Assembly: GCA_018241665.1 (NCBI GenBank)
Contig: JAFEDK010000025.1
Span: forward strand, 1 to 64,000
Reading direction: 5' to 3'
DNA length: 64,000 bases
Source: Pseudomonadota bacterium
Lineage (GTDB): Bacteria; Pseudomonadota; Gammaproteobacteria; Burkholderiales; Rhodocyclaceae
Shown here piece after piece: positions 41,927 through 57,714 of this stretch. The position numbers and the translations under genes were made by a program. Below the pieces are notes generated by a model, which made no database searches, was not told the DNA's origin, and saw only the letters and a list, made by a program, of their open reading frames with translations. Numbering within the stretch: position 1 is the first letter of the stretch; every line of letters starts with the position of its first letter.

Positions 41927-43330
41927 TTATTTGCTCAGCAGCGCGAGCTGTTGTGTGAGGTAGGTGCTCGTCGTGTTCATGCTTGCCATTGTTGTATCGA
42001 GGGCGGTGAACTGGGCCCGATAGGTCTGTTCAATCATGGTCAGCCGATTGTTGAGCGCGTCGATTTGCTTGCTGATGCTCTTGGTGCTGGCGGTCAGGCC
42101 ATCGGTGCGACTGGAGATGACCCCTCCGGTGCCCAGCAGGTCGGTAGTTGTTGTCTTCAGCGCGCTACCGTAGGCGCCAATTGCGGTTGCTACGGCGGAG
42201 AAGTCGGTACTGACGGCCTTGTCGAATTTCGTGCTGTCGACTGTTAGGCTGCCATCACTCTGGAAGGAGATGCCGAGGGAGCTCAGGGTCTTGTAGGCAT
42301 TGCCTGACAGGCTGGCGGGAGCGTTGGTCAGGGCTGAGCGAACTTGCGACTGGATGGTCCGCAGCGAGGTGTCTCCATTCAGGACGGCCGCGGTCTTGGT
42401 CGTCGCGTCGTAGGCCCCGAGGCTCTTGATCGACGAGTTCAGAGAGTTGTACGCCGTCACGAAGGTGTTCAGCTTGTCCTTCAGATCCGAGGTGTCACGG
42501 CTGACCGTCAGGGTTGTGGAGCCGGTCTTGCTGACCGTCAGGTCGATACCATCGAGTGCGTTCGAGATGGTATTGCCGCTGGTTGCAATCGAGACGCCCT
42601 GGATCTTGACGACGGCATCGGTTGCCGCCTGGGTTTGAGTAAAGGCGCTGCTTGCAGCAACGGGCGTGCCCGGATTGTTTTCATCGACGTAATTGGCCGG
42701 ATTGACAAACGTCGCCGTGCCGCCGAGGGTGATCTTGTTGGCGGTACCGCCGGTCGTGGCCGTTAGCAGCAGATTCTGCTTGCCGGTCGTGTCGGTGACG
42801 ATGGTCGCGCTGGCGCCCGCATTGGCGTTGTTGATCGCGTCACGAACGGCGGCAAGGGTGTTCTGGCTGCTGTCCAGGGTGATCGTGGACGTGGAGCCGG
42901 ATGCCAGGCTGATGGTCAGCGTGCGTGAGCTGTCCGCACCGAAGGTCAGCGCGCGGGCGCCGGCGCTGTAGGTCGTGTTCAGGGCCAGACGCTGATTGGT
43001 GGCCAGCGACGTGACGTCGATGGAGTAGGTGCCGGCAACGGCCGAATTGCTGGTTGTTGCCGATGCGATCGTGGAATCGGCAAAAGTCGCCTTGTAGGCG
43101 GAAAAAGATGCCGTTGCCGTCTGGCCGGTAGAGGGGGTGAGCGCCTTTGCGGCCGTCTGCAGGGACGACAGGGCGCTCTTCAGCGTACCGATGGCAGAGA
43201 TCTTTGATTGATAGCTGGTCTGCTGCTTCTGCAGTTGCGAGAGTGGTTGTCGCTCGATCGACATCAGGCCGGTGACCAGGGACTCGACATTGAGTCCGGA
43301 GCCGATGCCTGCAGATGAAATGGTTGCCAT
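41927..43330 (-). CDS. fliD: Flagellar filament cap protein FliD
   Basis: FliD (467 residues) caps the filament and folds incoming flagellin. The N-terminal 'GSGLNVESLVTGLMSIERQPLSQLQKQQTSYQSKISAIG' and the C-terminal heptad-rich 'RLTMIEQTYRAQFTALDTTMASMNTTSTYLTQQLA' are conserved. The middle is Ser/Thr/Ala-rich and variable. A sigma-54-type promoter about 90 bases upstream, and a terminator after flaG, indicate that fliD-fliS-fliT-fliK-like-flhB-like form their own transcript. Confidence 0.96.
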   Translation of the reverse strand: MATISSAGIGSGLNVESLVTGLMSIERQPLSQLQKQQTSYQSKISAIGTLKSALSSLQTAAKALTPSTGQTATASFSAYKATFADSTIASATTSNSAVAGTYSIDVTSLATNQRLALNTTYSAGARALTFGADSSRTLTISLASGSTSTITLDSSQNTLAAVRDAINNANAGASATIVTDTTGKQNLLLTATTGGTANKITLGGTATFVNPANYVDENNPGTPVAASSAFTQTQAATDAVVKIQGVSIATSGNTISNALDGIDLTVSKTGSTTLTVSRDTSDLKDKLNTFVTAYNSLNSSIKSLGAYDATTKTAAVLNGDTSLRTIQSQVRSALTNAPASLSGNAYKTLSSLGISFQSDGSLTVDSTKFDKAVSTDFSAVATAIGAYGSALKTTTTDLLGTGGVISSRTDGLTASTKSISKQIDALNNRLTMIEQTYRAQFTALDTTMASMNTTSTYLTQQLALLSK

Positions 43331-43979: not shown

Positions 43980-44828
43980 TTAGCGCAGGAGCGACAGCAC
44001 GTTATTGGGCATGCTGTTGGCCTGGGCCACCATTGCGGTGCCGGCTTGCTGCAGGATCTGGCCGCGGGTCATGTTGGCGGTCTCCTGGGCAAAGTCAGCA
44101 TCCATGATGCGGCCGCGGGACGACTTGGCGTTCTCGGACGCAACCTGCAGGGTTTGCACGACGGACGAAAAGCGGTTCTGTACGGCACCCCAGTTGGCAC
44201 GGGCGGTGTTCAGCGTGTCGATGGCTGCGTCGATCGACGCGATCGCGGATTGTGCCGCGCTGGTGCTGGCGGAAATGCCGGAGCCGGACAGGGCGCCCGC
44301 TGTGGTGGAGCCGAATGTGGCGCTGGACAGGCCAACCTGGGCGCTGGTCACGGAGATCGAGTCGGTGGAGGCAGTGCCTGCACCCACCTGGAAGGTGAAG
44401 GAAACGCCAGAACCTAGAACGCTTTGGCCGTTGAAGGTCGTGCCGCCCACGACACGGGCGATTTCCTGGTTAAGCTGCTGGAATTCGAGGTCCAGACTGG
44501 AGCGGTCGCCACTGGTGTAGGTGCCGTTGGCAGCCTGGACTGCCAGCTCGCGCATCCGCTGCAGGTTATCGGTAATGGCCTGCATCGCGCTTTCAGCGGT
44601 CTGCGCCATGGAGATGCCGTCGTTGGCGTTGCGGATTGCAACGTCAAAGCCCTTGGCTTGGGAGTTCATGCGGTCGGCAATGGCCAGACCGGCGGCGTCA
44701 TCTGCCGAGCTGTTGATGCGCAGGCCAGAGGACAGGCGTTGAACGGCCTTGGACAGGCCTGCCTGGGATGCGGACAGATTGCGTTGCGCATTCAGCGACA
44801 TCGCATTGGTGTTGATTGTGGCAGCCAT
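43980..44828 (-). CDS. fliC: Flagellin
   Basis: A 282-residue flagellin, short for the family because the surface-exposed middle is reduced. The conserved D0/D1 ends are intact: 'INTNAMSLNAQRNLSASQ', 'RLSSGLRINSSADDAAGLAIADR' and C-terminal 'ILQQAGTAMVAQANSMPNNVLSLLR'. The middle (about 155-205) is rich in Ser, Thr and Gly and so offers many possible O-glycosylation sites. AAGGAGAA precedes the ATG. Two sigma-28-type promoters lie upstream, and a nine-gene glycan operon ends just upstream on the same strand. It is the only flagellin gene in the window. Confidence 0.97.
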   Translation of the reverse strand: MAATINTNAMSLNAQRNLSASQAGLSKAVQRLSSGLRINSSADDAAGLAIADRMNSQAKGFDVAIRNANDGISMAQTAESAMQAITDNLQRMRELAVQAANGTYTSGDRSSLDLEFQQLNQEIARVVGGTTFNGQSVLGSGVSFTFQVGAGTASTDSISVTSAQVGLSSATFGSTTAGALSGSGISASTSAAQSAIASIDAAIDTLNTARANWGAVQNRFSSVVQTLQVASENAKSSRGRIMDADFAQETANMTRGQILQQAGTAMVAQANSMPNNVLSLLR

Positions 44829-44922: not shown

Positions 44923-44949
44923 TTAACGGGATGAGCCGCAAAGACTTTA
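44923..44949 (-). promoter_or_regulatory. Proximal sigma-28 promoter of fliC
   Basis: On the minus strand TAAAGTCT-N11-CCCGTTAA is close to the FliA consensus TAAAGTTT-N11-GCCGATAA (7/8 and 6/8). It would give a 5' leader of about 85 bases. Confidence 0.75.
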
Positions 44950-45113: not shown

Positions 45114-48100
45114 TCAGGAACCGTAGGCCGCGAACCAGCTCGCGGTGTGGTTCTCCAGGACGAAGCCGTCCTTGACCCATTGCTGGAGGGTCAGGCCGGC
45201 CTGCTGCAGGGCTTCCGGTTCCGCGAGTTGTTCGCGGATGGTGCGGATCCACAGCTCGGGATCGTTGCGCAGGCGTGTCACGGGAGCGTTCTGGTACGGG
45301 AAGATATCCGTGCAGATCACCGGCCAGCCCATGATTCCGTATTCAAGTAGCCGCAGGTTGCTCTTGGCCTCGTTGAAGGGGTGGATTTCCAGCGGGGCGA
45401 TCGCCAGGTCCAGATCCATGTCGGCGAGGGCCTGGGGGTACTTGCGGTAGTCGAGCTCGTAGCCGCGGTCTTCATGGACGAAAGGTTTGAGCGCATCCGG
45501 GCACATGCCCATGAAGATCCAGTCCACCTCATTGGCCAGCGCTTCGACCACCGGATAAATGAGCTCCAAGTCGCCATGGTGTTGCTGGGCGCCGGCCCAG
45601 CCGACACGGGGCTTGCGACGAGGCTTCCTCGGTGGTGCCGCATCGCCCCACAGGGACCATTCCAGCGTGTTCGGCATGATCCGGATGTCCCCGATCATGT
45701 CGGCACATAGGTCAGCCAGCGGCGGCGTGCTGACAATGGCCCGGTCTACCATGGACAGGTTGCGGCGCAGACGCTGGCGGCCGTCCTTGTAGCCGTTCTT
45801 GTAGAGGGGGTGTTTCCTCGGCAGGTCGGTGACCAGGTCGTCGATCGTCAGGATGCGTCGCAGCTTGGGAAAGTGCTGCACATAGCCGGCCAGCGCATCG
45901 CTCTGCATGTCGTCGAGGGGCTGGTGCATGATCAGCACGTCGGGTGCGGCGCGGGCTATTTCGATGGGGGTCAGGATCCGCATGGAGAAGGCCTTCGGCG
46001 GCTCGCTGATCATGGTGTGTGCGAGGCCGGCCTGGCTGATGCTGCGCAAGGGCGCGCGCAGTCGGTATTCACCTGCTCCGCCCGGTACCGGCGTGGCAAG
46101 GATGCGCGGCCGGTCATGGAAGTTCGTGTCCCAGTCGATGGGCGTGATGTGGTCCGGCTTGTAGGGGATTGCCAGGCTGAGGTTGCGGTTGTAGGCCGCA
46201 TCGTTGGCGAGGCGTGACATCCACTCAGAGAACAGCGTGTCGGTGGCCTTTTGGGCGGCTTGCAGGTCGGCCAGCTTGCCTTCCGGCTTGCGTTGCCGTG
46301 CAGCGAGCGAAACACTGTTGTAGTGAACCAGCGTTGTATATGGCGTCCACACGATCTTGTGGCCTTGCTCGCCGGCGCGCAGGCAGAAATCGAGGGCACC
46401 ATGGAAGAGCGGGTAGGTCCGGCCGTCAATTCCATTCAGCTGCACGAATACGCTGCGGCGCACCAGAAGCGCCGAACCGCTTGCCGCGCTGAGGTTCTGG
46501 TCGCACAGCGCCCGTCCCATATAGCCGGGTTCATCGATGTCGGCATTGTTGTTCCAGGGACTGCCCGCCACGCCATACAGGCCGAGGATGGTGCCGGCGT
46601 CCTGTACCTTGGCCGTTTCGGGATAGGTCAGGCGGGGAGCCACGATGGCGACTTCCGGGCGCTGGGCGAAGGCCATCAGTCGATCAAGCCAGTCGTCCTG
46701 GACGATGTGGGTGTCGTTGTCGAGGAAGAACAGGTAGTCACCGGCAGCCGCTGAGGCGCCGGTATTCACGCTGGCAGCCCAGCTGAACTCGCCCGGGCAG
46801 GAAAGCACCCGCGCAGGATGACCCTGCGCATTCTCCTGCAGGGTGTTCAGATACTTGATGGTATCCGGATCGCTGCTGTCGTTATCGACGACGATGATTT
46901 CGTAGTTCGGATAGCTCGTCCGCTCCTCGATGCCTTCGATGAGGGGGCGCAGGTACTCTTCCCTGTCCCGTGTCGGAATGATGATGCTGACGAGCGGTAC
47001 GCCGGGCCACTGATACTGGACCCGCCGGGTACCGAACACGGCGCCATCAAGGATGTCGGCGGTCAGCGCGCGCCGGGCCAGGTGGTCCTGCAGGGCGCTT
47101 TTTTCGGCTTCGGGGGATAGGGAGCGTCGGGTCTGCCGGGACAGGTGGGCGAGGACTTGGCTGATATGGCCGACTGCGTGCTCCCCTTCCTGGTCGAGGA
47201 CGCGCAGGGACAGGTCGTAGTTCTCGGCCCCCCTATGCGTGCCATAGCGGCCGCTGGACAGGAAGCTTTCCTTGGCTACCAGTACCAGGCTGCCGAAGTA
47301 GGCTTGTGAGCGCAGCAGGTCGAGATTGACGTCGGGCTTGAACAGCGGGTCGGTGTAGCTGCCGTCTTCCTGCAGCGTGTCCTCGTCGCAGTAGATGAGC
47401 TTCCAGTCGGGACGGGCGTTGATGTAGTCGGCGATGACCTGCAGCGCATGGGGTTCGAGGACCAGTCCGGGTTCGATACGGGCGAGCCAGGTGCCGGGCG
47501 AGGCCGCGGCCATCTCGTCGACCACGTAGTCGATGTGGGCGGCGTCGCGCAGGGATAGCCACTGTACGTTGGGCGCATCGGCGAGGCCTTCCGGCGCCGG
47601 CAGGTCCGTGACGACGGTCAGCAGCCAGTTGGTGTAGAGCTGGGGCGGGAGGCTGTCCAGCGTGTCGGCCAGTAGCGATTCCTCGCCGGGGTACAGCGCC
47701 AGCAGCAGGTGGATGCCTGGTTGCTGGTTCCAGGTGAGCACCATCCGTTCGGCGAGGACTTGGGCATCGATTTCCTGGAGTGTCTGGCGCGAGCGCCAGA
47801 CGGCATAGTTGTGCCGGTCGGTCTCTTCAGCGCTCTTGTCGGTCTCGCCTGCAAGGTCGTTCTTGTCCGCGCTGCGAGCGGCGTTCTTCGCGCTCTGGCG
47901 GGCCTCTTCGAAGCGCGTGAGTAATTGGGAACGGGCTTGGCGGATGTCGAGGTCGCCGGTTGGGTGGAGCGCGTAAACGGCCTGATACAGTTCCGGCAGG
48001 CGGCCTTGTTCCCGCTCCAACATGTGGCTGCCGGCGGCATTGATGCGCGTACGCACCTCCACGGTGGTGTGGCGGATATGGAAGAAAGGAAGTGCGTCCG

Positions 48101-49571
48101 ACAGGCGCAGCAGGAATTCCCAGTCTTCGAGGGCGGGCAGGGATTCGTTGAAGCCGCCGATCCGGTCGATGATCGAACGCGGATGGCTGAAGGTGTTGAC
48201 GGGGATGAAGTTCTGTACCGCCAGGCGATCGGCCGAAAATTCTTCATGTGCCAGCGGATTTCCGCGGCCATGCTCGACACGTCGCCGGCCTTCGAGGCTT
48301 TCCTTGACGTAGTCGGCATCTACGTAGATGACGCTGTCCGGGTGTGACTCGATGGCGCTGGCGAGGGTTTCCAGATGCGCCGGCAGCATCAGGTCGTCAT
48401 CGTCGAGGTACACCACGTAGCGGCCGCGGGCCAGTTTCAGGCCGGTATTGCGGGCGGCGCTGAGGCCCTTGTTGATCCCATGCCGAATCAGGGAAACCGG
48501 TGTCGAGAACTGGTTCAGCAGGTGTTCGACGGGTTCGCCGCAGTCGTTGATCAGGATGACTTCGAAGTCCTGGAAGGTTTGCTCATCGATGCTGCGCAGC
48601 GTGTCGATGAGAAGGAGCGGGCGGTTGAAGGTCGTGACGATAATGCTGAACAGGGGTTCTGCTCCACCCGCATGGCCCGAGCGGGGAAACAGCAGGTGCC
48701 TGATGGCCTTGCCGCGTCCCGCGTACTTGGCCTGAACGTCCGGCGGATAGCTGGCGAGGCGCCGTTGGTAGTGCTCCCATACCGGTGTGGCGGCCTTCTG
48801 CAGGCGTCGGCGGGCCGCCGGGTCGGCGAGATTCAGCTCTAGGATGCTGACGTGTTCAGCCAGGGGTTTGTCGGAGCGGTAAAAGTCCTGGGACACCTGG
48901 CCGCCATGGATGCGGTAGCCGAGGGTGGCCTGCCGGAGGAAGATGAAATCGGGCGCGGTCCGGGCGATGCGGGTCCACAGTTCCCAGTCGCCGGCAGTCA
49001 TGTCGGGGGCGTGTACATGGCCATCGGGCCGGCGGACCAGATCGAGGACGCTGCGCCGTAACATCACGGCCGATGGTGTGATGTAGTTGTCGTGGATCAG
49101 CAGGTCGACCACCTCGTCCCGATGGCCGAAATAGGAATGGGGCGGGTGTCCCGGATGGTCGGCGTGGCGGATCAGATCGCCGTTTTCGTCGATCCAGTTG
49201 CATTGCGTGTACGCCAGCGACGATTCGGGGTGCAGTTCAAGGGCGGCGAAGAGGGAGGCCAGATGCCCGGGATACACGAGGTCATCGGAGCCGAGTACCA
49301 CGACATAACGCCCGCTGCCCGAATCGACGCAGCGGTTGTAGTTGCCCATCATGCCCAGGTTTTGCGCGTTGACCGAGAAGCTGAAGCGCGGGTCCGACGT
49401 GTAGCGCTCGAGGACGGCGACCGAGTCGTCGGACGAGCGGTCATCGAAAACGATCAACTCCAGCGCCACCCCGGTTTCGGCCAGCACCGATTCGATGGTG
49501 TGGGAAATGAAGCGCGCATTGTTGTAGGACATGATGGCGACCGTGATGTCGGGTCGCTGGCTGTGGGACAT
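45114..49571 (-). CDS. Giant multi-module glycosyltransferase (GT2 modules plus GT4-like C-terminus)
   Basis: A soluble protein of 1485 residues that looks like five glycosyltransferase units in one chain. GT2-type folds start near residue 8 ('ITVAIMSYNNARF', 'VVLGSDD'), 305 ('FSIIVTTFNRPLLL', 'YLDDDD') and 870 ('LVSIIIPTRDREEYL', 'FFLDNDTH'). A degenerate one is near 620 ('LLLALYPGEESLL', 'IYCDEDT'). A GT-B/GT4-like part runs from about 1170 to the end ('RVGWAGAQQHHGDLE', 'LRLLEYGIMGWPVICTD'). It could build most of an oligosaccharide alone. It is the last gene of the glycan operon, 20 bases after its neighbour, and lies immediately upstream of flagellin. Similar long enzymes glycosylate flagellin in other proteobacteria; that target is inferred. 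Confidence 0.88.
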   Translation of the reverse strand: MSHSQRPDITVAIMSYNNARFISHTIESVLAETGVALELIVFDDRSSDDSVAVLERYTSDPRFSFSVNAQNLGMMGNYNRCVDSGSGRYVVVLGSDDLVYPGHLASLFAALELHPESSLAYTQCNWIDENGDLIRHADHPGHPPHSYFGHRDEVVDLLIHDNYITPSAVMLRRSVLDLVRRPDGHVHAPDMTAGDWELWTRIARTAPDFIFLRQATLGYRIHGGQVSQDFYRSDKPLAEHVSILELNLADPAARRRLQKAATPVWEHYQRRLASYPPDVQAKYAGRGKAIRHLLFPRSGHAGGAEPLFSIIVTTFNRPLLLIDTLRSIDEQTFQDFEVILINDCGEPVEHLLNQFSTPVSLIRHGINKGLSAARNTGLKLARGRYVVYLDDDDLMLPAHLETLASAIESHPDSVIYVDADYVKESLEGRRRVEHGRGNPLAHEEFSADRLAVQNFIPVNTFSHPRSIIDRIGGFNESLPALEDWEFLLRLSDALPFFHIRHTTVEVRTRINAAGSHMLEREQGRLPELYQAVYALHPTGDLDIRQARSQLLTRFEEARQSAKNAARSADKNDLAGETDKSAEETDRHNYAVWRSRQTLQEIDAQVLAERMVLTWNQQPGIHLLLALYPGEESLLADTLDSLPPQLYTNWLLTVVTDLPAPEGLADAPNVQWLSLRDAAHIDYVVDEMAAASPGTWLARIEPGLVLEPHALQVIADYINARPDWKLIYCDEDTLQEDGSYTDPLFKPDVNLDLLRSQAYFGSLVLVAKESFLSSGRYGTHRGAENYDLSLRVLDQEGEHAVGHISQVLAHLSRQTRRSLSPEAEKSALQDHLARRALTADILDGAVFGTRRVQYQWPGVPLVSIIIPTRDREEYLRPLIEGIEERTSYPNYEIIVVDNDSSDPDTIKYLNTLQENAQGHPARVLSCPGEFSWAASVNTGASAAAGDYLFFLDNDTHIVQDDWLDRLMAFAQRPEVAIVAPRLTYPETAKVQDAGTILGLYGVAGSPWNNNADIDEPGYMGRALCDQNLSAASGSALLVRRSVFVQLNGIDGRTYPLFHGALDFCLRAGEQGHKIVWTPYTTLVHYNSVSLAARQRKPEGKLADLQAAQKATDTLFSEWMSRLANDAAYNRNLSLAIPYKPDHITPIDWDTNFHDRPRILATPVPGGAGEYRLRAPLRSISQAGLAHTMISEPPKAFSMRILTPIEIARAAPDVLIMHQPLDDMQSDALAGYVQHFPKLRRILTIDDLVTDLPRKHPLYKNGYKDGRQRLRRNLSMVDRAIVSTPPLADLCADMIGDIRIMPNTLEWSLWGDAAPPRKPRRKPRVGWAGAQQHHGDLELIYPVVEALANEVDWIFMGMCPDALKPFVHEDRGYELDYRKYPQALADMDLDLAIAPLEIHPFNEAKSNLRLLEYGIMGWPVICTDIFPYQNAPVTRLRNDPELWIRTIREQLAEPEALQQAGLTLQQWVKDGFVLENHTASWFAAYGS

Positions 49572-49591: not shown

Positions 49592-50662
49592 TTAACGCTG
49601 ATGTTTGGCGGCTGACCGCGCTTCTAGGAGGGGGAGGGCGTGTTCGACGAAGCTGGTTTCGCTGGTGCCGACATTGAACAGCAGGTAATCCCTGAACCCG
49701 GCGATCTGGTCCTGCAAGAAGCCGGAGTGGCGGTGGGCCGCCTGGATTGCCGGGGCCAGCGCACCCAGATCCCTGACGACGAGGCCGATGTTCTCGCGGC
49801 GCTCGAACTGGATGCCCCTCTTGCCTTCCTCGGAGGCCGGGTCGGGGGCGAAGAACAAGGCCGGCCGGCCGAAAGTGAAGGCGTAGGTGAAGCCGGTGCC
49901 CGAGATGTCGGTGAGCATCAGGTGGCTCTGCGCGTAGGTCTCGAAGTAGTTGCCCGAACGGTCCAGGGCGAACAGGGGATGGCCGTCGAACTGACTGACG
50001 ATGCCTTCCACTTCTTCGCGGTCCTGGTCACGCCAGGATTCCATGTGGGGACGGAAGACGACCTTGACGCCGGCGTCGGTCAGGCTGCCGATGATCTTGC
50101 GCCCGTATTGGCCGACCACCGAAAAACGGCTGTTGATGTAGTAGCCGTGGGTCGGCGCGAAGACGACGGTAAGGGGGCTTTCCGGCGGCACGAGGCCGGA
50201 GGCCTGCAATTGCCGGCGCTGGCCGTCCAGCTTGGGATAGCCGACCCGCAGTAGCAGTTTGTCGGCGAGGTTCCGCCGCCGCACCAGGGCCTCGAATTCC
50301 TCGATGTGGTGGCGTCCGGCGCAGACGATGGCGTCGTAGTGGTCGAACATGCCTTCGTCGTAGACGCCTTCGAGGCTGGTCAGGGACACCAGAAAGTGCA
50401 CGCGCAGCGCGCCGCGGGGGAAATGGGCCGACTGGGCGACGAGGGGGGTGAGGTACAGGGATGCGCTTTCCTGGCTCACCGCCTCCAGCGGCACGTCGAA
50501 GCGATAGTCGATGCCTTCGGCCCGCGGGCCGGGCATGGAGGTGGCCGGGAAGGCATTCAGCCAGCGCACGTGCCAGCCGCGGGCGGCCAGCATGGCGGGA
50601 ATCTCGCCAAGATTGAAAACATGCGAGACGTGGTAGCAGTAGCAGACGACGGAGCGACTCAT
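49592..50662 (-). CDS. CDP-glycerol glycerophosphotransferase-like protein
   Basis: A 356-residue GT-B-fold protein resembling the CDP-glycerol:polyglycerolphosphate transferase family (TagB/TagF-like), with 'VFAPTHGYYINSRF', 'KVVFRPHMES', 'SHLMLTDISGTGFTYAFTFGRPALFF' and no membrane helix. Family members use a CDP-linked donor and transfer the phosphate-bearing group. The operon encodes enzymes for a CDP-linked phosphoramidate, so this gene is a reasonable candidate for its transferase, but it could equally be an ordinary glycan-phosphate transferase. Its ATG overlaps the stop of the sugar-isomerase/acetyltransferase gene (ATGA). Confidence 0.8.
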   Translation of the reverse strand: MSRSVVCYCYHVSHVFNLGEIPAMLAARGWHVRWLNAFPATSMPGPRAEGIDYRFDVPLEAVSQESASLYLTPLVAQSAHFPRGALRVHFLVSLTSLEGVYDEGMFDHYDAIVCAGRHHIEEFEALVRRRNLADKLLLRVGYPKLDGQRRQLQASGLVPPESPLTVVFAPTHGYYINSRFSVVGQYGRKIIGSLTDAGVKVVFRPHMESWRDQDREEVEGIVSQFDGHPLFALDRSGNYFETYAQSHLMLTDISGTGFTYAFTFGRPALFFAPDPASEEGKRGIQFERRENIGLVVRDLGALAPAIQAAHRHSGFLQDQIAGFRDYLLFNVGTSETSFVEHALPLLEARSAAKHQR

Positions 50663-51597
50663 GCTGCGCCTCCCACGACGGTCACCTGTTCAAGGAACTC
50701 GTCGTAATTGCGGATGTAGTCGGTGGCGTCATATTCGTGGGAGGCGAACACCAGCAGGACGGCATCGGCTGAATAGGCGTACTGGCTGGCCCAGGTCATC
50801 GGGGGTAGGTACAGTCCCTTGTCGCTGCTGTTGAGCAGGAATTCCTGGCGGTCCCGGCCATCGTCCGCGACGACCCGCACGCTGCCCTTGGTGCAGATCA
50901 GGAACTGCTCGCAGGCCTTGTGGGCGTGCTCGCCGCGCACGTCGCGGCTGGGAACGTCGAAGACCATGAAGTAGCGGCGTGGCAGGAATGGGATGTCGGT
51001 GGCGAAGTTGCCGACCGTCAGACTGCCCCGCATGTCCTGGTGGCGCGGGAATTCCTTCAGGAAGACGCCACGGACCCGTGACTGGGCATGCTCGGGCGTG
51101 CTGTCTGCGCGGGCGGTGACGCCTTCCGCGGTGGTGGTCGTGTAGCCGACGATGCGCGCCGGGTTGCCGACCACGATGGCGTAGGGCGGGACCGAATGGG
51201 TGACGACCGATCCGGCTCCGACCATTGCGTACTGACCGATGGTCAGCCCCGGCAGGATCGTGGCATTGGCGCCGATGGACGCATTGTGCTCGACGACCGT
51301 CTGCGAGAAGCGCTCGGGCTGGTGCTTACTGCGCGGGAAGGGATCGTTGGTGAAGGTGGCGTTGGGGCCGATGAAGACATCGTTGCCGACGCGCAGGCCG
51401 TCCCACAGTTGCACGCCGCACTTGACCGTCACGCGGTCGCCGAGCACGACGTCGTTCTCAATGAACACGCTGTCGCAGATGTTGCAGTCGGCACCGATGC
51501 TGGCGCCGGGCAGGACGTGCGCAAACGCCCAGATCCGCGTTCCAGCCCCGATCCGGTGGCTTTCGCAGATGCCTTGCGGATGAATGAAATGGCTCAC
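50659..51597 (-). CDS. WxcM-like fusion: hexapeptide N-acyltransferase plus dTDP-6-deoxyhexose 3,4-ketoisomerase
   Basis: A bifunctional protein of 312 residues. The N-terminal half (1-165) is a left-handed beta-helix acetyltransferase with repeats such as 'IGADCNICDSVFIENDVVLGD' and the loop 'NATFTNDPFPRS'. The C-terminal half (about 180-312) is a cupin of the FdtA/QdtA type ('DVRGEHAHKACEQFLICTKGSVRVV', 'LYLPPMTWASQY'). Together these would isomerise dTDP-4-keto-6-deoxyglucose and later N-acetylate the 3-amino sugar. The GTG at 51597 overlaps the aminotransferase stop (GTGA). Whether the product is Fuc3NAc or Qui3NAc cannot be decided here. rmlA/rmlB are not in the window. Confidence 0.9.
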   Translation of the reverse strand: MSHFIHPQGICESHRIGAGTRIWAFAHVLPGASIGADCNICDSVFIENDVVLGDRVTVKCGVQLWDGLRVGNDVFIGPNATFTNDPFPRSKHQPERFSQTVVEHNASIGANATILPGLTIGQYAMVGAGSVVTHSVPPYAIVVGNPARIVGYTTTTAEGVTARADSTPEHAQSRVRGVFLKEFPRHQDMRGSLTVGNFATDIPFLPRRYFMVFDVPSRDVRGEHAHKACEQFLICTKGSVRVVADDGRDRQEFLLNSSDKGLYLPPMTWASQYAYSADAVLLVFASHEYDATDYIRNYDEFLEQVTVVGGAA

Positions 51598-52706
51598 GTT
51601 GTCGATTCCTTCTGGGCGGCGATCCGGCAGGCCTGGATCACGGTGGCGACCTCGTCGTCGCTCATTTCGGGGAAGCAGGGCAGGCTCAGGATCTCTCGCG
51701 CGGCGGCCTCGGTGACGGGCAATGCCGGACGGGCCTCGCCGGCGTAAGCAGGCTGCAGGTGATCTGGAATCGGATAGTGAACGTCGCTGCCGATCTGATG
51801 CGCTTGCAGTACGCTCCGCACCATCTCTCGTTGCAGGGGGCGCACCACGCACAGGTGGGCCACGTCATCTTCGGCAGGGGCCGGCGGAAGCTGCCAGCCG
51901 ATATCCTGGAGGCCCTCCCGGTAGCGGGAAACGATGTCCCGGCGGCGCTGGTTCCAGGCGTCCAGATGGGGAAGCTTGACGCGCAGCACGGCAGCCTGGA
52001 TCTCGTCCAGGCGGCTGTTGCGCCCGCCGGCTTCGCGGCATTCGTATTTCTGCGCGGCCCAACCGTACTGGCGTAGTTGGCGGACGCGGGCCAGTCGCTC
52101 GGTATCCTGCCCGGTCACCAGGCCACCGTCACCGAGGGCGCCGAGATTCTTGGTCGGGTAGAAGCTGAAGGCGGCCAGATCGCCCCAGGTGCCGGCGGCG
52201 CGTCCATGCCGGCGGGCGCCGTGGGCCTGGGCACAGTCCTCGATGACCGGGATGCCGTGCTGGTGGGCGAGGGGGACGATTTGCTCCACGTCGGCCATCC
52301 GGCCGTACAGGTGGGTCACCACGATGGCGGCGGTCGTCGGCGTGATGGCCGCGGCGAGCAGGCTCGGGTCCATCAGCAGCGAGTCGGCCTGAACATCCAC
52401 ATAGACGGGCCTTGCGCCGGCCGCGCGGATTGCGGTGCTGGCATACATGCCGGCGTTGGCCACGGTGATGACTTCCCGGCCCGGTCCGGCGCCGGCGGCG
52501 CGCAAGGCCAGTTCGAGCGCGTCGGTGCCGTTGCCGACGCCGACAGCGTCCGGCGCGCCGAGATAGGCCGCAAACTCCTGTTCGAAAGCCTTGTTCTCCG
52601 GGCCGAGGACGTAATAGCCGCGTTCGAGGACCCGCCCGATAGCTGCCCGCAGTTCGGCGTCGAGGGGGGCGTTGTGGCGCTTCAGGTCGTTAATTGGCAA
52701 TGTCAT
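51594..52706 (-). CDS. DegT/DnrJ/EryC1-type sugar aminotransferase (FdtB/QdtB-like)
   Basis: This 370-residue PLP enzyme aminates a nucleotide-linked keto sugar. The PLP lysine is in 'FSFYPTKNLGALGDGG'; 'GNGTDALELALRA', 'VIEDCAQAHGA' and 'QYGWAAQKYE' are typical of 3-aminotransferases acting on dTDP-3-keto-6-deoxyhexoses. Pairing with the isomerase/acetyltransferase fusion next door fits that substrate. The start overlaps the preceding gene by 17 bases, indicating translational coupling to the phosphoramidate genes. Confidence 0.92.
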   Translation of the reverse strand: MTLPINDLKRHNAPLDAELRAAIGRVLERGYYVLGPENKAFEQEFAAYLGAPDAVGVGNGTDALELALRAAGAGPGREVITVANAGMYASTAIRAAGARPVYVDVQADSLLMDPSLLAAAITPTTAAIVVTHLYGRMADVEQIVPLAHQHGIPVIEDCAQAHGARRHGRAAGTWGDLAAFSFYPTKNLGALGDGGLVTGQDTERLARVRQLRQYGWAAQKYECREAGGRNSRLDEIQAAVLRVKLPHLDAWNQRRRDIVSRYREGLQDIGWQLPPAPAEDDVAHLCVVRPLQREMVRSVLQAHQIGSDVHYPIPDHLQPAYAGEARPALPVTEAAAREILSLPCFPEMSDDEVATVIQACRIAAQKESTT

Positions 52707-53424
52707 GGAGGTCGATGTCTGAGTAGGCGTCGAGATCGCTGGCCGAATCGACTTCGCCCCACGGACCGCTGACTGGGACGGTACCGATGCGCCAGCCCCG
52801 TTCCAGCCCCCGGCGGAGCAGGGAGGTCATGTCGAGGCGGTCGGCGGCCGGGCCGATCTCGGCCAGGTAGGCCGCGATGTTCTGCCAGCTTGCCGGGGTC
52901 AGCTTGAGAAGCCCCATATATTGCCCCTCGATGGTGTCCAGCCGGTCGCTCTTTTGCCCGATATCGGCCAGCGTGCCGTCGGGCTTGAGGCTGAAGCTCT
53001 CGGCGTCCTGCAGCGGATCGGCGAAACGCTTTTGCCAGAGAGCTAGCCACTGGGGGTCGAAGGAGATGCACAGGGCTGCCGGGCAGGCGGCGAGCCGACG
53101 CACCGTTTGTGCCGAGTAGAAGATGTCGCTGTAGCTGACGATGCAGTCTCCGCTGGCCAGCCATTCGGCGGCGGCGGCCAGGGTGCGGACCATGTTGGTC
53201 TCTTGCCAGCGGGGGTTTTCGAAGTAGTGGACCGATTCGGTGAACTTATCGCCCTTGTAACCGCGAACAATCGCGATCTCGTCGATGCCGGCGGCCCGCA
53301 GGGCGCTGAGCTGCCAGTCCAGCAGGCGGCGACCGTGCAGGCGGGTGAAGCACTTGGGCTGTTCCGATGTCATCTCGCCCATGCGGCTGCCACGTCCGGC
53401 AGCAAGGATTACGGCTCGGGTCAT
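52690..53424 (-). CDS. Nucleotidyltransferase, probable CTP:phosphoglutamine cytidylyltransferase (Cj1416-like)
   Basis: A 244-residue sugar-nucleotidyltransferase-fold protein with the signature 'ILAAGRGSRMG' at the N-terminus, 'QPKCFTRLHGRRLLDWQL', and catalytic acidic residues in 'CIVSYSDIFY' and 'GEVDSASDL'. By fold alone it could be a LicC-like cholinephosphate enzyme. Its company (glutamine kinase, CDP-amidate hydrolase, CDP-amidate kinase, methyltransferase homologues) points to Campylobacter Cj1416, which makes CDP-L-glutamine from CTP and phosphoglutamine. The function is inferred from context. It lies 51 bases after the amidotransferase-like gene. Confidence 0.82.
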   Translation of the reverse strand: MTRAVILAAGRGSRMGEMTSEQPKCFTRLHGRRLLDWQLSALRAAGIDEIAIVRGYKGDKFTESVHYFENPRWQETNMVRTLAAAAEWLASGDCIVSYSDIFYSAQTVRRLAACPAALCISFDPQWLALWQKRFADPLQDAESFSLKPDGTLADIGQKSDRLDTIEGQYMGLLKLTPASWQNIAAYLAEIGPAADRLDMTSLLRRGLERGWRIGTVPVSGPWGEVDSASDLDAYSDIDLHDIAN

Positions 53425-53475
53425 AGGGATCTCAGGTCTGTGTGTGCTCAGCCGGCTCGCGGCCGCGCAAAGCTT

Positions 53476-54102
53476 TTAACATATGCCGCTCGGGGCCGGC
53501 AATGACGGGCCGCGGGCCAGCAGGGCGGTGAGCCGCCGGATGTCTTCAGCGCAGAATTCGGGCTCCCGTTCGGGGTGCCACATCCAGGCTTCCCACGGCA
53601 GGGTTCGGTGGCGGATGGCTTCGATCACGCCGTCCTCGGTGCGGGCCAGCACCTCGAAACCAGCTGGGCATCCAGCCAGCGCGAACTGATGGAAGCTGTT
53701 GACCTCGTTCGTGATGAGGCCACTGATCCGATGTCGGCTACCCACGTGCCCGTCCACCGGTTTGAGTGCGGTACCGGCCTGCCAGCCCATCATCTGCATG
53801 CCGCGACAGATGCCGAGGGCCGGCAGGCCGAGGCCTTGCGCGTGTTCGAGAAGCAGGCTCTCGGTGCGATCTCGGGCGGGCTGCTGGCCGATGTCGTTAC
53901 CGCCGGACAGCACTATGGCCTCGGGGGCTATGGCGGCCAGCCAGGCCGGCAGCGTGCCGCTGGTGACCAGCGTGTTCGGTACAGGGATGGCCAGCCCGCC
54001 TGCGGCAGCGACGAACTCGGCGAGGCGCTGGTCGAGGGCGTCGCGGACTTCGCCCCGCTCCGGCCAGGCATCCACCCGCTGGCTGACCGCGATCCGTTTC
54101 AA
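53476..54102 (-). CDS. Class I glutamine-amidotransferase-fold hydrolase, probable gamma-glutamyl-CDP-amidate hydrolase (Cj1417-like)
   Basis: A 208-residue gamma-glutamyl hydrolase of the PuuD/GATase1 type. The nucleophile elbow is 'LGICRGMQMMGWQ' (Cys99), with His176 and Glu178 in 'WMWHPERE' completing the triad. In Campylobacter the homologue Cj1417 removes glutamate from gamma-glutamyl-CDP-amidate, leaving CDP-amidate with its P-N bond. Its ATG overlaps the stop of the glutamine-kinase-like gene (ATGA). Alternative roles, such as gamma-glutamyl-GABA hydrolysis, are less likely in this operon. Confidence 0.85.
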   Translation of the reverse strand: MKRIAVSQRVDAWPERGEVRDALDQRLAEFVAAAGGLAIPVPNTLVTSGTLPAWLAAIAPEAIVLSGGNDIGQQPARDRTESLLLEHAQGLGLPALGICRGMQMMGWQAGTALKPVDGHVGSRHRISGLITNEVNSFHQFALAGCPAGFEVLARTEDGVIEAIRHRTLPWEAWMWHPEREPEFCAEDIRRLTALLARGPSLPAPSGIC

Positions 54103-56417
54103 TCCAGCACCTCCACCCGGCGGCCGCCGCAGTCGAGATGCAGGTGGCGGGCGCCGGACCAGCGCCGGTACAGCACTTCGCCGGCACCGATGACGGCCGG
54201 CAGTCCCAGTTCGCCGGCGCGGATCGCCATGTGTGAATTGGCGCCGCCCCAGGCGGTGATCAGGCCGGCGATCGGGTAGGCGAACAGCCAGTCGAAGCCG
54301 GGGTCGGCGTTGGGAATGCAGACGATAGCGCCGGCCAGCTTCTCCCGCGCGTCACAGCTGGTGACCGGGGCGGTGATGCGTTTCTGGGTGATGAAATTGG
54401 GTTCGGTCTCCGGCCACTCGAAGCCCCATACGTCGTCCGGCTGGGCAATCAGCGGCGGCAGTGAGATCCGCTGGGTCTCGGCATACTGGGCCTTGCCGCG
54501 CTCGATGCTGCGCAGCAGGGCCTCCCGCGGTGAGGCTGCGGCGACGTGGAGCTCCTTGAAGACCGTGATGTCGGCGTAGGCCAGCTCGTCCCGCTCGAAA
54601 CCCCATTGGGCGCCAAGCTCAGCGATGAGGGCGAGGGTGTCGGATAGGTTGCGGGTGAAATGGAACTTGGCCAGCTCACGCAGCTCGATGCCTGCCTGCA
54701 TGAAGTCGAACAGGCCCACTGGGTCGGGCTGCAGCCCGTGCTCGGTGAGCAGCTTCACGATGTCCCGCATCTGAGGCAGGGTCAGCGAGAAGGGATGGGC
54801 GTGTTCTGGCAGGTCCGGCTTCTGACTCCAGTCGAAATACAGTTCGGGCGCCTCGTCGTAGCGCGGCGACAGGATGTCGTAGGTGCCGGGGCGCAGGTGC
54901 CCGTAGCGGGACAGGAAGGTGGAGCGGTCCAGCGTGGCGCGGTCGCGGGCGAGCTGCCCGCTCACCGTCGATACGCTGCCGACGAAGGCATCGTAGTCAG
55001 CCTGGGAGAACACACCCACGGCGACCAGGGACTTGAGCAGCTGGATCGCGACGAAGCCGGCCCGGGCCAGCCCGGCGAAGGGCAGGGTGCCATAGCGCTT
55101 GGCATCCTCGAGCAGCCAGTAGATGCGCTCCAGTGGATCGGCGTTGGAGGCGAACAGGGTGTCCCGCCGCGTTTTCAGGGTGTCGAGCTTGGCGGCATCG
55201 TCCCGCCACAGGCCGGCCTTGGGGTGCACGATGCGGTTGGTCAGCTTGCGCAGGCTCTGCGCGATGGTTTCCCGTTCGTGGGCGGAGAAACCCGCTGCAG
55301 CCAGGCGTTCGAGGCGATCCGGCAGGTCCAGCGTGTAGCAGGAGAAGACGATCTCGAACTCCACCTTGTCGTGCAGGGTGGGTTCGGCCAGCAGGCGGTC
55401 GATGTAATGATCCACCAGCCGCCCGGCCAGGCCTTCGTCCAGGTCGGCGGGAATGAAAGAGTTGAACGACAGGCGGACGTCGATATACGGCAGGCCGAAG
55501 AAATGCGGCATCAGCGGGAAGCTGCGCAGGTTGCGGTAGCCGTAGTTGTGGCGCTGGTAGGCCCAGATCGAGTCGGTCACCAGCTCACGGTACAGGGACA
55601 GGGCCAGCGGCTTGGGGCGGATGCCGACGATTTCGGCCGGGTTCCAGTCGGGCATGACGCCATAGACCGTGCGGCGTCCCATCAGGAAGGGATGGGGGCG
55701 CATGCCCCGCGTCACCTTGTCGTGGATCAGCTGGAGGCGGCCAGTCTGGACCGGGGCAGCCTCGGGGGGCTGAGGCAGCACCAGGCGGCGAGCCTGCAGC
55801 AGCCACAGGATGTCTCCCCCGGCACCGGCAGTCACCGCGAACTCGACGTCGAGGGGCGCCTCGCCGAGCAGCGAAGACAGCTCGCCGAGCAATGCGATCA
55901 CGCCCTCCAGGGACGGTGGGGTCGCCGTCCGCGGTGCCTGCGCAGCCTGCTGCCAGATCCGGCCGCCCAGGCCGCCGGTGACCGCCGCGGTGTCGCCACC
56001 TTCCGACCAGTTCACGATCCGGTAAGGCGCGCAGGTGTTCGGGTCGTGGGAGAAGGCGACGCCGGAGCGCACGACCTTCTGCAGCATCGGCTGGATCAGG
56101 ACTTCGTCGCTCGGCAGGGCTTCGCCGTAGGACTGGAACACCTTTTCGACGGCGGCCTCGAGTCCGTCCGCCTGCACGTCCGGCACCGACAGGAAGGCGC
56201 CGGCGTAGGACGCTTCGGCGCTGTCCTCACGCCCGCAACTGGAGCGGACGATCCACGGGCCGCTGCCGATGGCGTCGCCGAGGCCGGCGAGGCAGGCTCC
56301 TCGCCCGGCCTGCCAGTCGGCTTGCGTGAAGCTCACCAGCGGCGGGATCCGTGCCGTCCGGAGGCGGCCCTGCAACTGCCTGAGGGTGCCGGCCTTGGTG
56401 CCGAGTGTGATGGACAT
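54099..56417 (-). CDS. PEP-synthase-like enzyme, probable L-glutamine kinase (Cj1418-like)
   Basis: A 772-residue protein with an N-terminal ATP-grasp/PEP-synthase-type nucleotide-binding domain ('IVRSSCGREDSAEASYAGAF', 'LLQARRL'), a long unique middle (about 270-690) and a C-terminal swivelling phosphohistidine domain ('AWGGANSHMAIRAGELG', His729). No PEP/pyruvate-binding barrel is recognisable, so it is not a true PEP synthase. This is the architecture of Campylobacter Cj1418, which phosphorylates the amide nitrogen of glutamine and creates the P-N bond of MeOPN. The ATG at 56417 is chosen because it gives a conserved start just after the methyltransferase stop. Confidence 0.87.
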   Translation of the reverse strand: MSITLGTKAGTLRQLQGRLRTARIPPLVSFTQADWQAGRGACLAGLGDAIGSGPWIVRSSCGREDSAEASYAGAFLSVPDVQADGLEAAVEKVFQSYGEALPSDEVLIQPMLQKVVRSGVAFSHDPNTCAPYRIVNWSEGGDTAAVTGGLGGRIWQQAAQAPRTATPPSLEGVIALLGELSSLLGEAPLDVEFAVTAGAGGDILWLLQARRLVLPQPPEAAPVQTGRLQLIHDKVTRGMRPHPFLMGRRTVYGVMPDWNPAEIVGIRPKPLALSLYRELVTDSIWAYQRHNYGYRNLRSFPLMPHFFGLPYIDVRLSFNSFIPADLDEGLAGRLVDHYIDRLLAEPTLHDKVEFEIVFSCYTLDLPDRLERLAAAGFSAHERETIAQSLRKLTNRIVHPKAGLWRDDAAKLDTLKTRRDTLFASNADPLERIYWLLEDAKRYGTLPFAGLARAGFVAIQLLKSLVAVGVFSQADYDAFVGSVSTVSGQLARDRATLDRSTFLSRYGHLRPGTYDILSPRYDEAPELYFDWSQKPDLPEHAHPFSLTLPQMRDIVKLLTEHGLQPDPVGLFDFMQAGIELRELAKFHFTRNLSDTLALIAELGAQWGFERDELAYADITVFKELHVAAASPREALLRSIERGKAQYAETQRISLPPLIAQPDDVWGFEWPETEPNFITQKRITAPVTSCDAREKLAGAIVCIPNADPGFDWLFAYPIAGLITAWGGANSHMAIRAGELGLPAVIGAGEVLYRRWSGARHLHLDCGGRRVEVLD

Positions 56418-56425
56418 TGCGCCTG

Positions 56426-57178
56426 TCAGCCCTTCAGTTGGGCAACCCAGATGTTGGTGGAGTAGGGAATCTGGATGGTAGCCACCCCGAGGCTCTTCAG
56501 GTATTGGTCGATCGCCTCGACGACTTCGGCAAAGCGGTCCCCGGCCTGGCGTTCCAGCGTGGCGTGGGAGCGCCAGGCTTCGGTGCATTCGGCGATGCTC
56601 TGCTCATGAATCACCCGTGAGTCCAGATGGACCACCGGGCCGAACAGGCCGCTGCTGTCGATGACCGCCGTCTGGTCCTCGCGCCGCGTGCCGTAGCCGT
56701 AGCCGGCCACGTGGCGCTTGATGATGGCTTCGATCTCGGCCTGGATCGGATCGTCGAGATGGCGGTGGTTCCACATGCATGCAAACCAGCCCTGCGGCTT
56801 GAGGATCCGTGCGGTTTCCAGCAGGGCGAGCGGGCGGTTGCAGACGTTGAAGGAGCTGCCGAAAGTGACCATCTCGAAGGCCTTGTCAGCCTGGCCTGTG
56901 TGCTCACCTGTACCTTCGTGCCAGCGCACGTTGCCGAGAGCCTGGGTGCGGGTCACGCCGTTGGCGCGCATTGCGTCGTTGGGTTCGACTGCCACCACGT
57001 TCAGGCCCCGGGCCGCCAGCATCAGAGTCAGGTGCGCCACGCCGGCACCCACGTCGCAGACCGGGTCACCCTTCTGCAGACCGGCGATGGAGAGCATCGC
57101 GTCGATGGCCGCATCGGCATAGTCCGGTCGCTTCAGGTAGGCGTCGGCGAGCGTGGTGTAGTCCCATTCGGTTTTCAT
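56426..57178 (-). CDS. SAM-dependent methyltransferase, probable phosphoramidate O-methyltransferase (Cj1420-like)
   Basis: A class I methyltransferase of 250 residues. SAM motif I is 'VCDVGAGVAHLTLML' (about 40-54), followed by the acidic 'VAVEPNDAM', and the N-terminus 'WDYTTLADAYLKRPDYADAAID' is distinctive. The last third has 'NHRHLDDPIQAEIE' and 'YSTNIWVAQLKG'. Located between the CDP-amidate kinase and glutamine-kinase homologues, it is the best candidate to add the O-methyl group, as predicted for Cj1419/Cj1420 in Campylobacter. The ATG overlaps the stop of the kinase gene (ATGA). Substrate assignment is inference. Confidence 0.82.
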   Translation of the reverse strand: MKTEWDYTTLADAYLKRPDYADAAIDAMLSIAGLQKGDPVCDVGAGVAHLTLMLAARGLNVVAVEPNDAMRANGVTRTQALGNVRWHEGTGEHTGQADKAFEMVTFGSSFNVCNRPLALLETARILKPQGWFACMWNHRHLDDPIQAEIEAIIKRHVAGYGYGTRREDQTAVIDSSGLFGPVVHLDSRVIHEQSIAECTEAWRSHATLERQAGDRFAEVVEAIDQYLKSLGVATIQIPYSTNIWVAQLKG

Positions 57179-57714
57179 TCTTGTCCTTCCCTTTCCAGTG
57201 TTTCCAGTAGTCGGGACGCCAGTGTTTCCACGTCGACGCCCGGTGTGAATTCGGCCATCCAGTCCGCAGCCGCAGGTTCGTCGACGGGCAGGTCGAGCCC
57301 GGCCACGTCGGAGAGCTCGCCCGCGTCGAAACGGCGGTAGATGCCTTTTGGATCACGCCTCCGCAATTCCTCCAACGGCACCTTCAGATAGGCTTCGAAA
57401 TAGCCTGGCAGGTGGTCGCGATTCCAGACATGCACTTCTCGGAACAGGGAGATGGTGGCGATCACCACGGTCAGCCCCTGCTGGGCAAGCACCCGGCACA
57501 AATGGGCATACTGCATGGCCAGCGCCAGGCGGCCGTCGCGGCCATGGTTCCGGCTGTTCTGGGCTGCCGCGCCGAAGACTTCGCGCAGTTCGTCCCCGTC
57601 CAGCATGACGACGGCCTGGCTGCGGGCGCGCAGGCGCGCGACCACTGCATGGGCGAGGGTCGACTTCCCCGCGCCCGACAGGCCGGTTATCCAGATGACT
57701 CTTCCGTTCCCCAC
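57175..57714 (-). CDS. APS-kinase-like enzyme, probable cytidine-diphosphoramidate kinase (Cj1415-like)
   Basis: A 179-residue P-loop kinase of the adenylylsulfate-kinase family. The P-loop 'GLSGAGKS' is at residues 11-18; 'VVMLDGDELREVFG', 'NHGRDGRLALAMQY' and 'IATISLFREVHVWNR' follow. No sulfate-assimilation genes are nearby. Position in this operon argues for the Campylobacter Cj1415 role: phosphorylating the 3'-hydroxyl of CDP-amidate. The GTG at 57714 is used, with GAGG 8 bases upstream; no ATG fits. It is the first gene of the glycan operon; the 89 bases before it contain no promoter I can recognise. Confidence 0.85.
   Translation of the reverse strand: MGNGRVIWITGLSGAGKSTLAHAVVARLRARSQAVVMLDGDELREVFGAAAQNSRNHGRDGRLALAMQYAHLCRVLAQQGLTVVIATISLFREVHVWNRDHLPGYFEAYLKVPLEELRRRDPKGIYRRFDAGELSDVAGLDLPVDEPAAADWMAEFTPGVDVETLASRLLETLEREGQE

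Follow-up and report, generated by a model that had tools for sequence, protein, structure and literature searches.

Why should a bacterium of the family Rhodocyclaceae carry, in a flagellar gene cluster, a set of enzymes that resembles one from the capsule locus of Campylobacter jejuni, and what does the product of these enzymes decorate? The question is raised by a stretch of 64,000 nucleotides (positions 1 to 64,000 of contig JAFEDK010000025.1, GenBank assembly GCA_018241665.1), referred to below as the window, in which an earlier note had read five adjacent genes at 52690..57714 as a Campylobacter-type cassette for the biosynthesis of O-methyl phosphoramidate (MeOPN). The five open reading frames (ORFs) are present at these positions on the minus strand, and they form the first part of a nine-gene operon that runs from 57714 down to 45114, four genes past that interval. 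The reading favoured here, and considered moderately probable, is that a phosphoramidate donor pathway has been wired to flagellin glycosylation, with a cytidine diphosphate (CDP)-glycerol glycerophosphotransferase-like (TagF-like) protein as candidate phosphoramidate transferase. There is good support for reading the five genes as a Campylobacter-type phosphoramidate donor cassette. The further genes of the operon favour decoration of flagellin, and the phosphoramidate tag probably decorates the flagellum, because the cassette sits in a flagellar gene cluster. In operon order, the five genes are:

57175 to 57714, minus strand: adenylyl-sulfate (APS) kinase-like kinase of the PRK05541 type, 179 residues, GTG start; predicted 3'-hydroxyl kinase of cytidine diphosphoramidate
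56426 to 57178, minus strand: S-adenosylmethionine (SAM) methyltransferase, 250 residues, Methyltransf_11 at 49.8 bits; predicted to O-methylate the phosphoramidate
54099 to 56417, minus strand: phosphoenolpyruvate (PEP)-synthase-like protein without a PEP barrel, 772 residues, NF004508 at 981.4 bits; predicted L-glutamine kinase
53476 to 54102, minus strand: class I amidotransferase-fold hydrolase, 208 residues, TTG start; predicted gamma-glutamyl-CDP-amidate hydrolase
52690 to 53424, minus strand: nucleotidyltransferase, 244 residues, NTP_transf_3 at 72.5 bits; predicted cytidine triphosphate (CTP):phosphoglutamine cytidylyltransferase

The five enzyme types that had been proposed are borne out by Pfam, which finds APS_kinase, a class I methyltransferase, PPDK_N with the PEP-utilising mobile domain, Peptidase_C26/GATase and a MobA-like nucleotidyltransferase. 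The 772-residue kinase, whose start codon is an ATG inside a longer ORF, scores 981.4 bits against the NCBIfam model NF004508 (PRK05849 family; cut-off 501), and the APS-kinase-like protein scores 211.9 bits against NF004041 (cut-off 127). Cj1418 presumably belongs to the former family and Cj1415 to the latter, and the models themselves are named hypothetical protein and adenylyl-sulfate kinase, respectively. A PEP synthase can be ruled out for the large protein since NF004508 lies far ahead and the PEP barrel is missing: at E ≤ 0.001 no barrel domain is found, and the Pfam matches are confined to PPDK_N and PEP-utilizers. The mobile-domain histidine, which is phosphorylated in this family, is present as His729 in the window and in all 16 aligned kinases. 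In E. coli, the kinase gene gave no blastn match. A viral origin of the kinase was also rejected, as no relative was confirmed in viral contigs and the sole match in the phage collection (L124) looks, on inspection by eye, like a contig of a Firmicutes chromosome. Similarly, the APS-kinase-like protein is not the sulfate-assimilation enzyme CysC, because the same genome encodes a separate, higher-scoring canonical APS kinase (190.7 versus 96.7 bits for the cassette protein). The Ser-Pro of this canonical enzyme is seen in none of the 28 cassette APS-kinase-like proteins that were aligned out of 90, and all 28 match NF004041 at E ≤ 0.001.

The hydrolase has gamma-glutamyl-CDP-amidate hydrolase (NF045546) as its best NCBIfam model, at 86 bits. 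The Cys99-His176-Glu178 triad, described before as intact, is indeed so, and none of its residues varies among the 48 hydrolases aligned, that of the window together with 47 relatives hand-picked from 92 hydrolase ORFs. NF045546 matches all 48 at E ≤ 0.001, with a best value of 6.1e-40; models of the guanosine monophosphate (GMP) synthase type match all 48 too, more weakly at best (2.1e-18). When 61 genomes of the family were scanned with NF045546, the four genomes that carry the cassette held the top four scores (74–93 bits), the next best being 54. It had been proposed that best matches of the 772-residue enzyme and the hydrolase in unrelated families would count against the cassette; the curated models gave related families and the reading survived, with the 981.4 bits of the kinase and the best model of the hydrolase in its support. 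For the nucleotidyltransferase, the best solved relative by sequence is the CTP:phosphocholine cytidylyltransferase LicC (1jyk; E 2.3e-07), over residues 3–63 (61 residues) only, and no NCBIfam model for phosphoglutamine cytidylyltransferase activity appears among the matches listed. In some other cassettes, a gene of the inositol-monophosphatase family adjoins the hydrolase and nucleotidyltransferase genes (L046:5596-6384 and relatives, 13 loci). CysQ removes the 3'-phosphate from 3'-phosphoadenosine 5'-phosphate (PAP), and by analogy this protein may strip the spent nucleotide of its 3'-phosphate.

To see how often the gene set recurs, genome contigs were scanned with a kinase alignment, which returned at least 587 stretches with the pattern; at least 510 of them were confirmed by tblastn (E ≤ 1e-3) and the best 80 were kept. 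Adding the window and 14 loci found in searches of the genus and family gives 95 loci, two duplicates (L028 and L033) having been dropped, and the neighbouring genes were counted with profiles seeded by the window's or neighbour genes and iterated on the same 95 loci. Near the kinase, the hydrolase is found in 92 of the 95, the cytidylyltransferase in 91 and the APS-kinase-like gene in 90; these counts are not independent, because the loci were selected by kinase similarity and include related strains. In an even sample of Pseudomonadota, 12 of 396 genomes pass the kinase cut-off, as do 13 of 249 in a family sample (the window's own being included in both), while in the phylum of the Eubacterium locus L120 the centre genome is the only one to pass among 199. 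Furthermore, natural fusions tie the cassette enzymes together: APS-kinase-like and kinase domains share one ORF in five loci (L110, L111, L115, L122 and L123), and kinase and hydrolase are joined in a single protein of 1011 residues in L124:652-3687 (MT837632.1, labelled Bacteriophage sp.). By record titles, kinase relatives occur in Pseudomonadota, Bacteroidota, Verrucomicrobiota, cyanobacteria, Acidobacteriota, Planctomycetota and Firmicutes, although single phylum cases may be contamination, since many records are metagenome-assembled. In 14 plasmid records, the kinase is named generically (for example, PEP-utilizing enzyme) or not at all. Among the kinase relatives listed from the genome, viral-contig, plasmid and phage-collection searches, none is a Campylobacter locus. 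Given the 981.4 bits to NF004508 and the recurrence of the same group in distant phyla, the gene set is not a product of chance; the pathway is scattered over many phyla and is not unique to this genome.

Some relatives depart from this arrangement. On the Agrobacterium vitis plasmid pRvVAT039a (L127:9908-14997), the kinase, hydrolase and cytidylyltransferase genes adjoin a CDP-alcohol phosphatidyltransferase and LysE exporters, and no APS-kinase-like match was found in the L127 stretch; this cassette may serve a secreted small-molecule phosphoramidate.

The earlier note had also held that the cassette is joined to a different sugar pathway, and the remaining genes of the operon agree with this:

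51594 to 52706, minus strand: DegT-family aminotransferase, predicted for a 3-amino-3,6-dideoxyhexose, PF01041 at 349.6 bits
50659 to 51597, minus strand: fused sugar N-acetyltransferase and deoxythymidine diphosphate (dTDP)-sugar 3,4-ketoisomerase, WxcM-like, FdtA at 176.7 bits with Hexapep
49592 to 50662, minus strand: TagF-like protein, 356 residues, PF04464; candidate phosphoramidate transferase
45114 to 49571, minus strand: 1485-residue protein with three family 2 glycosyltransferase (GT2) domains, PF00535 in three stretches, 259.5 bits; candidate flagellin glycosyltransferase

The genes are tightly packed: taken in the order of the two lists, they are separated by -4, 8, -4, 51, -17, -4, -4 and 20 bp, and a further 285 bp lead to fliC. 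The ATGA overlap reported at 57175 is present, while the one reported at 54099 is in fact TTGA, because the start codon of the hydrolase is TTG. The solved relatives of the aminotransferase include 2oga and QdtB (3frk). The fusion protein matches the WxcM-like 4mzu over nearly its full length (E 4.3e-114), and because of this match and those of the QdtB type, the sugar product is likely to be dTDP-3-acetamido-3,6-dideoxyhexose. The TagF-like protein scores 41.7 bits against PF04464 (cut-off 22.1) over residues 107–325, and no solved relative of it was found by sequence.

The same nine genes recur in identical order in Zoogloea sp. LCSB751, the kinase of which is 93% identical to that of the window. 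Between the window and LCSB751 (L028, the same stretch as L044), the hydrolase is 74% identical and its eight operon neighbours are 88–94% identical. A long kinase match is present in five of 23 Zoogloea genomes, namely the window's own, LCSB751 and three at 38–39% (one of them ended by a contig edge). Apart from LCSB751, the closest front genes are in loci such as Dechloromonas L045 (APS-kinase-like 76%, methyltransferase 83%, kinase 80%) and the Rhodocyclales locus L078 (79, 81 and 78%, respectively), and the rear genes are close to those of Chitinibacter L084 (nucleotidyltransferase 72%, aminotransferase 67%, WxcM-like 74% and TagF-like 67%, with the kinase at 59%) and Andreprevotia L097, with similar identities. 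This split suggests that the donor module and the glycan module have been exchanged separately.

The link to the flagellum begins with the genes that follow the operon:

43980 to 44828, minus strand: fliC flagellin, 282 residues, 285 bp downstream of the operon, matched by flagellin models
44923 to 44949, minus strand: putative sigma-28-like promoter of fliC, TAAAGTCT, 11 bases, CCCGTTAA, read by eye
41927 to 43330, minus strand: fliD filament cap, FliD_C at 156.6 bits and FliD_N at 92.8 bits

The best flagellin model of fliC, NF009444, reaches 316.7 bits, under its cut-off of 332, and beyond fliC lie fliD and a FliK-type gene. The boxes TAAAGTCT and CCCGTTAA were assigned by the sigma-28 consensus, and sequence searches found neither an exact GCCGATA nor a sigma-54-type site near fliC.

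Flagellin linkage extends well beyond the window. Of the 94 loci besides that of the window, 83 had their genomes searched (11 loci, on contigs of 11.5 kb or less, were left out), and in at least 24 of the resulting 84 genomes, the window's own included, a flagellin gene lies within 30 kb of the kinase on the same contig, at distances of 1.5 to 28.5 kb. Some 1.5 of 84 would be expected in a rough calculation with clusters counted by eye and relatedness ignored. The count is a lower bound, because many assemblies are fragmented and because for 27 genomes flagellin was tested in the flanks of the locus only (about 10 kb at most); the set itself is biased towards loci like that of the window. The linked genomes comprise Zoogloea and others of its family, Chitinibacter, Andreprevotia, Pseudomonas, Marinobacter, Aeromonas piscicola, two Eubacterium and one Acetatifactor. 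In the even sample of Pseudomonadota, four of 11 are linked, one of which shares coordinates with the Pseudomonas locus L087. There, flgF, flgG, flgH, flgJ, flgK and flgL (named by model) precede the cassette, and FlgK and FlgG are encoded beside it in seven loci in total. As many of the examined cassettes lie near flagellin genes, flagellin is a likelier acceptor here than capsule. The claim of a new setting holds in that the locus is flagellar instead of capsular; the cassette as such is not unique, given the at least 510 confirmed stretches.

What the sequences themselves show is the gene content, the families, the active-site residues, the packing of the operon, its place in the flagellar cluster and its recurrence; all reactions, the methylation, the acceptor and the transferase are inferred. 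The predicted pathway can be set out as follows, with each CDP step presumably belonging to the enzyme named. The 54099–56417 protein would phosphorylate L-glutamine, the 52690–53424 protein would couple the phosphoglutamine to CTP, and the 53476–54102 hydrolase would remove glutamate to leave cytidine diphosphoramidate. The 57175–57714 kinase would then add a 3'-phosphate, giving 3'-phospho-CDP-NH2, and the 56426–57178 protein would probably O-methylate the phosphoramidate. Meanwhile, the aminotransferase and the WxcM-like enzyme would make dTDP-3-acetamido-3,6-dideoxyhexose, the three-domain GT2 protein would assemble a short flagellin-linked glycan in the cytoplasm, and the TagF-like protein would move the (methyl) phosphoramidate onto the flagellin sugar. 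Among the nine operon genes, Pfam finds no flippase, exporter or polymerase family, which fits the expectation of cytoplasmic glycosylation.

In C. jejuni, glutamine N-phosphorylation and a 3'-phospho-cytidine diphosphoramidate intermediate are described in a review (PMC6429109), and another paper lists L-glutamine kinase, phosphoglutamine cytidylyltransferase, gamma-glutamyl-CDP-amidate hydrolase and methyltransferase together for the pathway (PMC10071015). The modification requires cj1415-cj1418, and cj1421/cj1422 encode the transferases, according to passages of PMC3907429. A 2026 paper calls the enzymatic details of methyl phosphoramidate placement on the HS:19 capsule still unclear (PMC13276843).

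TagF-like enzymes use CDP-linked donors, which makes the TagF-like 356-residue protein, by family and position, the best transferase candidate in the operon. Relatives of it, as judged by profile, occur in 37 of the 95 loci; the group includes a Pseudomonas protein that has no Pfam match at all and is encoded directly upstream of the APS-kinase-like gene. On a Vibrio plasmid, a gene annotated as CDP-glycerol glycerophosphotransferase family follows right after the cassette (at only 22 bits to the TagF-like profile). Sulfotransferase-fold proteins stand beside the cassette in 22 of the 95 loci (L056:7411-8610 and relatives), a count that depends on the settings and rises to 27 in a laxer profile run. 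They may be alternative phosphoramidate transferases, because the 3'-phosphate of the donor resembles that of 3'-phosphoadenosine 5'-phosphosulfate (PAPS). Within 6 kb, 36 loci have only the TagF-like gene, 21 only the sulfotransferase-fold gene, one has both and 37 neither.

Whether the donor is methylated bears on the MeOPN of the earlier note, of which the phosphoramidate enzyme types stand and the methyl group is deduced from the methyltransferase gene alone. The methyltransferase is found by profile in 71 of the 95 loci and falls into two groups (47 loci with the window's own, and 25). A formyltransferase-like gene occurs in 21 loci. In 17 loci it co-occurs with a partner (f21), a protein of about 190 residues without a Pfam match, the pair mostly replacing the methyltransferase; these include L034, L038, L042, L080-L082, L088 and L099, with three Zoogloea genomes represented (L034, L042 and L043). 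The methyltransferase and formyltransferase-like genes appear to alternate, which is suggestive only: 68 loci have the methyltransferase alone, 18 the formyltransferase-like gene alone, three both and six neither, and independent pairs on the kinase tree (91 rows; L043, L059, L085 and L106 left out) run 5.1 opposite to 0.2 same, with a median p of 0.0625.

That the cassette makes an unmethylated phosphoramidate while the methyltransferase acts on the sugar is unlikely, if worth serious thought. The methyltransferase profile is silent in 24 of the 95 loci (though some, such as L039, have another methyltransferase), and such a phosphoramidate is known from Xanthomonas and Shewanella lipopolysaccharide (LPS) and from C. 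jejuni (PMC3907429, PMC9561416); a modelling study lacked knockout data for Cj1419/Cj1420 (PMC3546167). Against this stand the place of the methyltransferase gene between the APS-kinase-like and kinase genes in the window and many other loci, its 61% identity in Eubacterium L117, compared with 48% for the kinase there, and its tendency, again suggestive only, to alternate with a formyltransferase-like gene that itself occurs with or without sugar genes. Less probable still is a look-alike set that makes something other than phosphoramidate, such as another nucleotide-activated N-phosphoryl amino acid. Such a product would agree with the low score of the hydrolase, with the lack of obvious glycan genes near some relatives (such as the A. 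vitis plasmid) and with the literature located, in the available parts of which no assay of such enzymes outside Campylobacter was found. It fits poorly with an enzyme type that matches every step, with the invariance of the triad and the mobile-domain histidine in the alignments, and with the retention of a nearby hydrolase gene in 92 of 95 loci, as a non-hydrolysed product would not need a hydrolase.

The acceptor is the point on which the evidence divides. The same cassette could instead modify a surface polysaccharide (LPS, capsule or zoogloeal gel), its proximity to fliC being incidental, and this is rather unlikely on the present evidence. Excerpts of PMC3907429 place known phosphoramidates on polysaccharides, such as the C. 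jejuni capsule and the LPS of Xanthomonas and Shewanella, and several cassettes lie far from flagellin (about 1 Mb or more in G138 and G200, about 220 kb in G283); in Castellaniella (L057) the nine-gene module is present without any flagellin match at 1e-15. However, the operon lacks the flippase, exporter and polymerase families noted above, it directly precedes fliC-fliD, and, with unknowns counted as unlinked, flagellin linkage must have changed at least 11 times over the kinase tree.

A phosphoramidate donor pathway joined to flagellin glycosylation remains the preferred reading, and several further observations weigh against it alongside these distant cassettes. In 60 of the 84 genomes, no flagellin was found within 30 kb by the tests used, and 20 of the 60 lack any flagellin match (64 of the 84 have one somewhere), so flagellin cannot be assumed as the acceptor in every genome. 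The hydrolase is not filed as a strict equivalog because its 86 bits fall under the NF045546 cut-off of 250, and this model also picks up weak matches, none above the cut-off, in 59 of the 61 genomes of the family and in all 14 controls. Near the kinase of the 11 other even-sample genomes, hydrolase and cytidylyltransferase genes turn up in 10 loci each and the APS-kinase-like gene in only five, making the four-gene set less uniform than in the best-match set. The mutual exclusion of TagF-like and sulfotransferase-fold genes does not reach significance when independent pairs are taken from the kinase tree, the transferase assignment is based on family and position, and the comparison with C. 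jejuni was made through family models, not pairwise.

If flagellin decoration is correct, phosphoramidate-bearing flagellin glycans exist, were missed and would be candidate phage receptors; in C. jejuni, the capsule phosphoramidate tag is a phage receptor, as stated in a 2022 review (PMC9561416). The titles and abstract openings listed, mostly of Campylobacter work, contain no earlier report of phosphoramidate on flagellin, and in the portions seen of the literature on flagellin glycosylation islands the word is absent or confined to a reference list. The same review calls the glutamine kinase C. jejuni-specific, against which the kinase relatives over many phyla stand. In addition, non-pathogenic model organisms for the pathway become available, and the TagF-like and sulfotransferase-fold neighbours provide concrete transferase candidates. 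A broader proposal, offered tentatively and with more doubt than confidence, is that the formation of the P-N bond from glutamine is a horizontally swapped module for surface glycans, flagellin included, in many phyla. TagF-like transferases would read the CDP half of the donor and sulfotransferase-fold proteins its 3'-phosphate, and the formyltransferase-like pair would replace the methyltransferase in some lineages.

Among known systems, WxcM/FdtD-type synthesis is matched in the window by the fused acetyltransferase/ketoisomerase and the QdtB/DesV-like aminotransferase, the sequence being compatible with either epimer, 3-acetamido-3,6-dideoxygalactose (Fuc3NAc) or 3-acetamido-3,6-dideoxyglucose (Qui3NAc). 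Compared with TagF-like CDP-glycerol glycerophosphotransferases, the window protein lies above the PF04464 gathering score but matches part of the domain only. The Pseudomonas flagellin glycosylation island (flgL-fliC) likewise holds sugar-nucleotide and glycosyltransferase genes inside a late flagellar cluster, and six Pseudomonas loci and one gammaproteobacterium (L082) carry the same cassette right after flgK and flgL; the P. syringae island makes a modified viosamine, phosphoramidate not being mentioned in the part of PMC3927599 available. The closest system is the C. jejuni Cj1415-Cj1418 pathway (with Cj1419/Cj1420 and the transferases Cj1421/Cj1422), with which the window shares four enzyme types and, in the same operon, a SAM methyltransferase; both the kinase and the APS-kinase-like protein score above the cut-offs of curated models. 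It differs in its flagellar instead of capsular locus, its diverged hydrolase, its other sugar pathway and its CDP-glycerol-transferase-like candidate transferase. The kind of chemistry is already known, and the novelty lies in where the genes sit, in the sugar pathway that accompanies them and in the candidate transferase.

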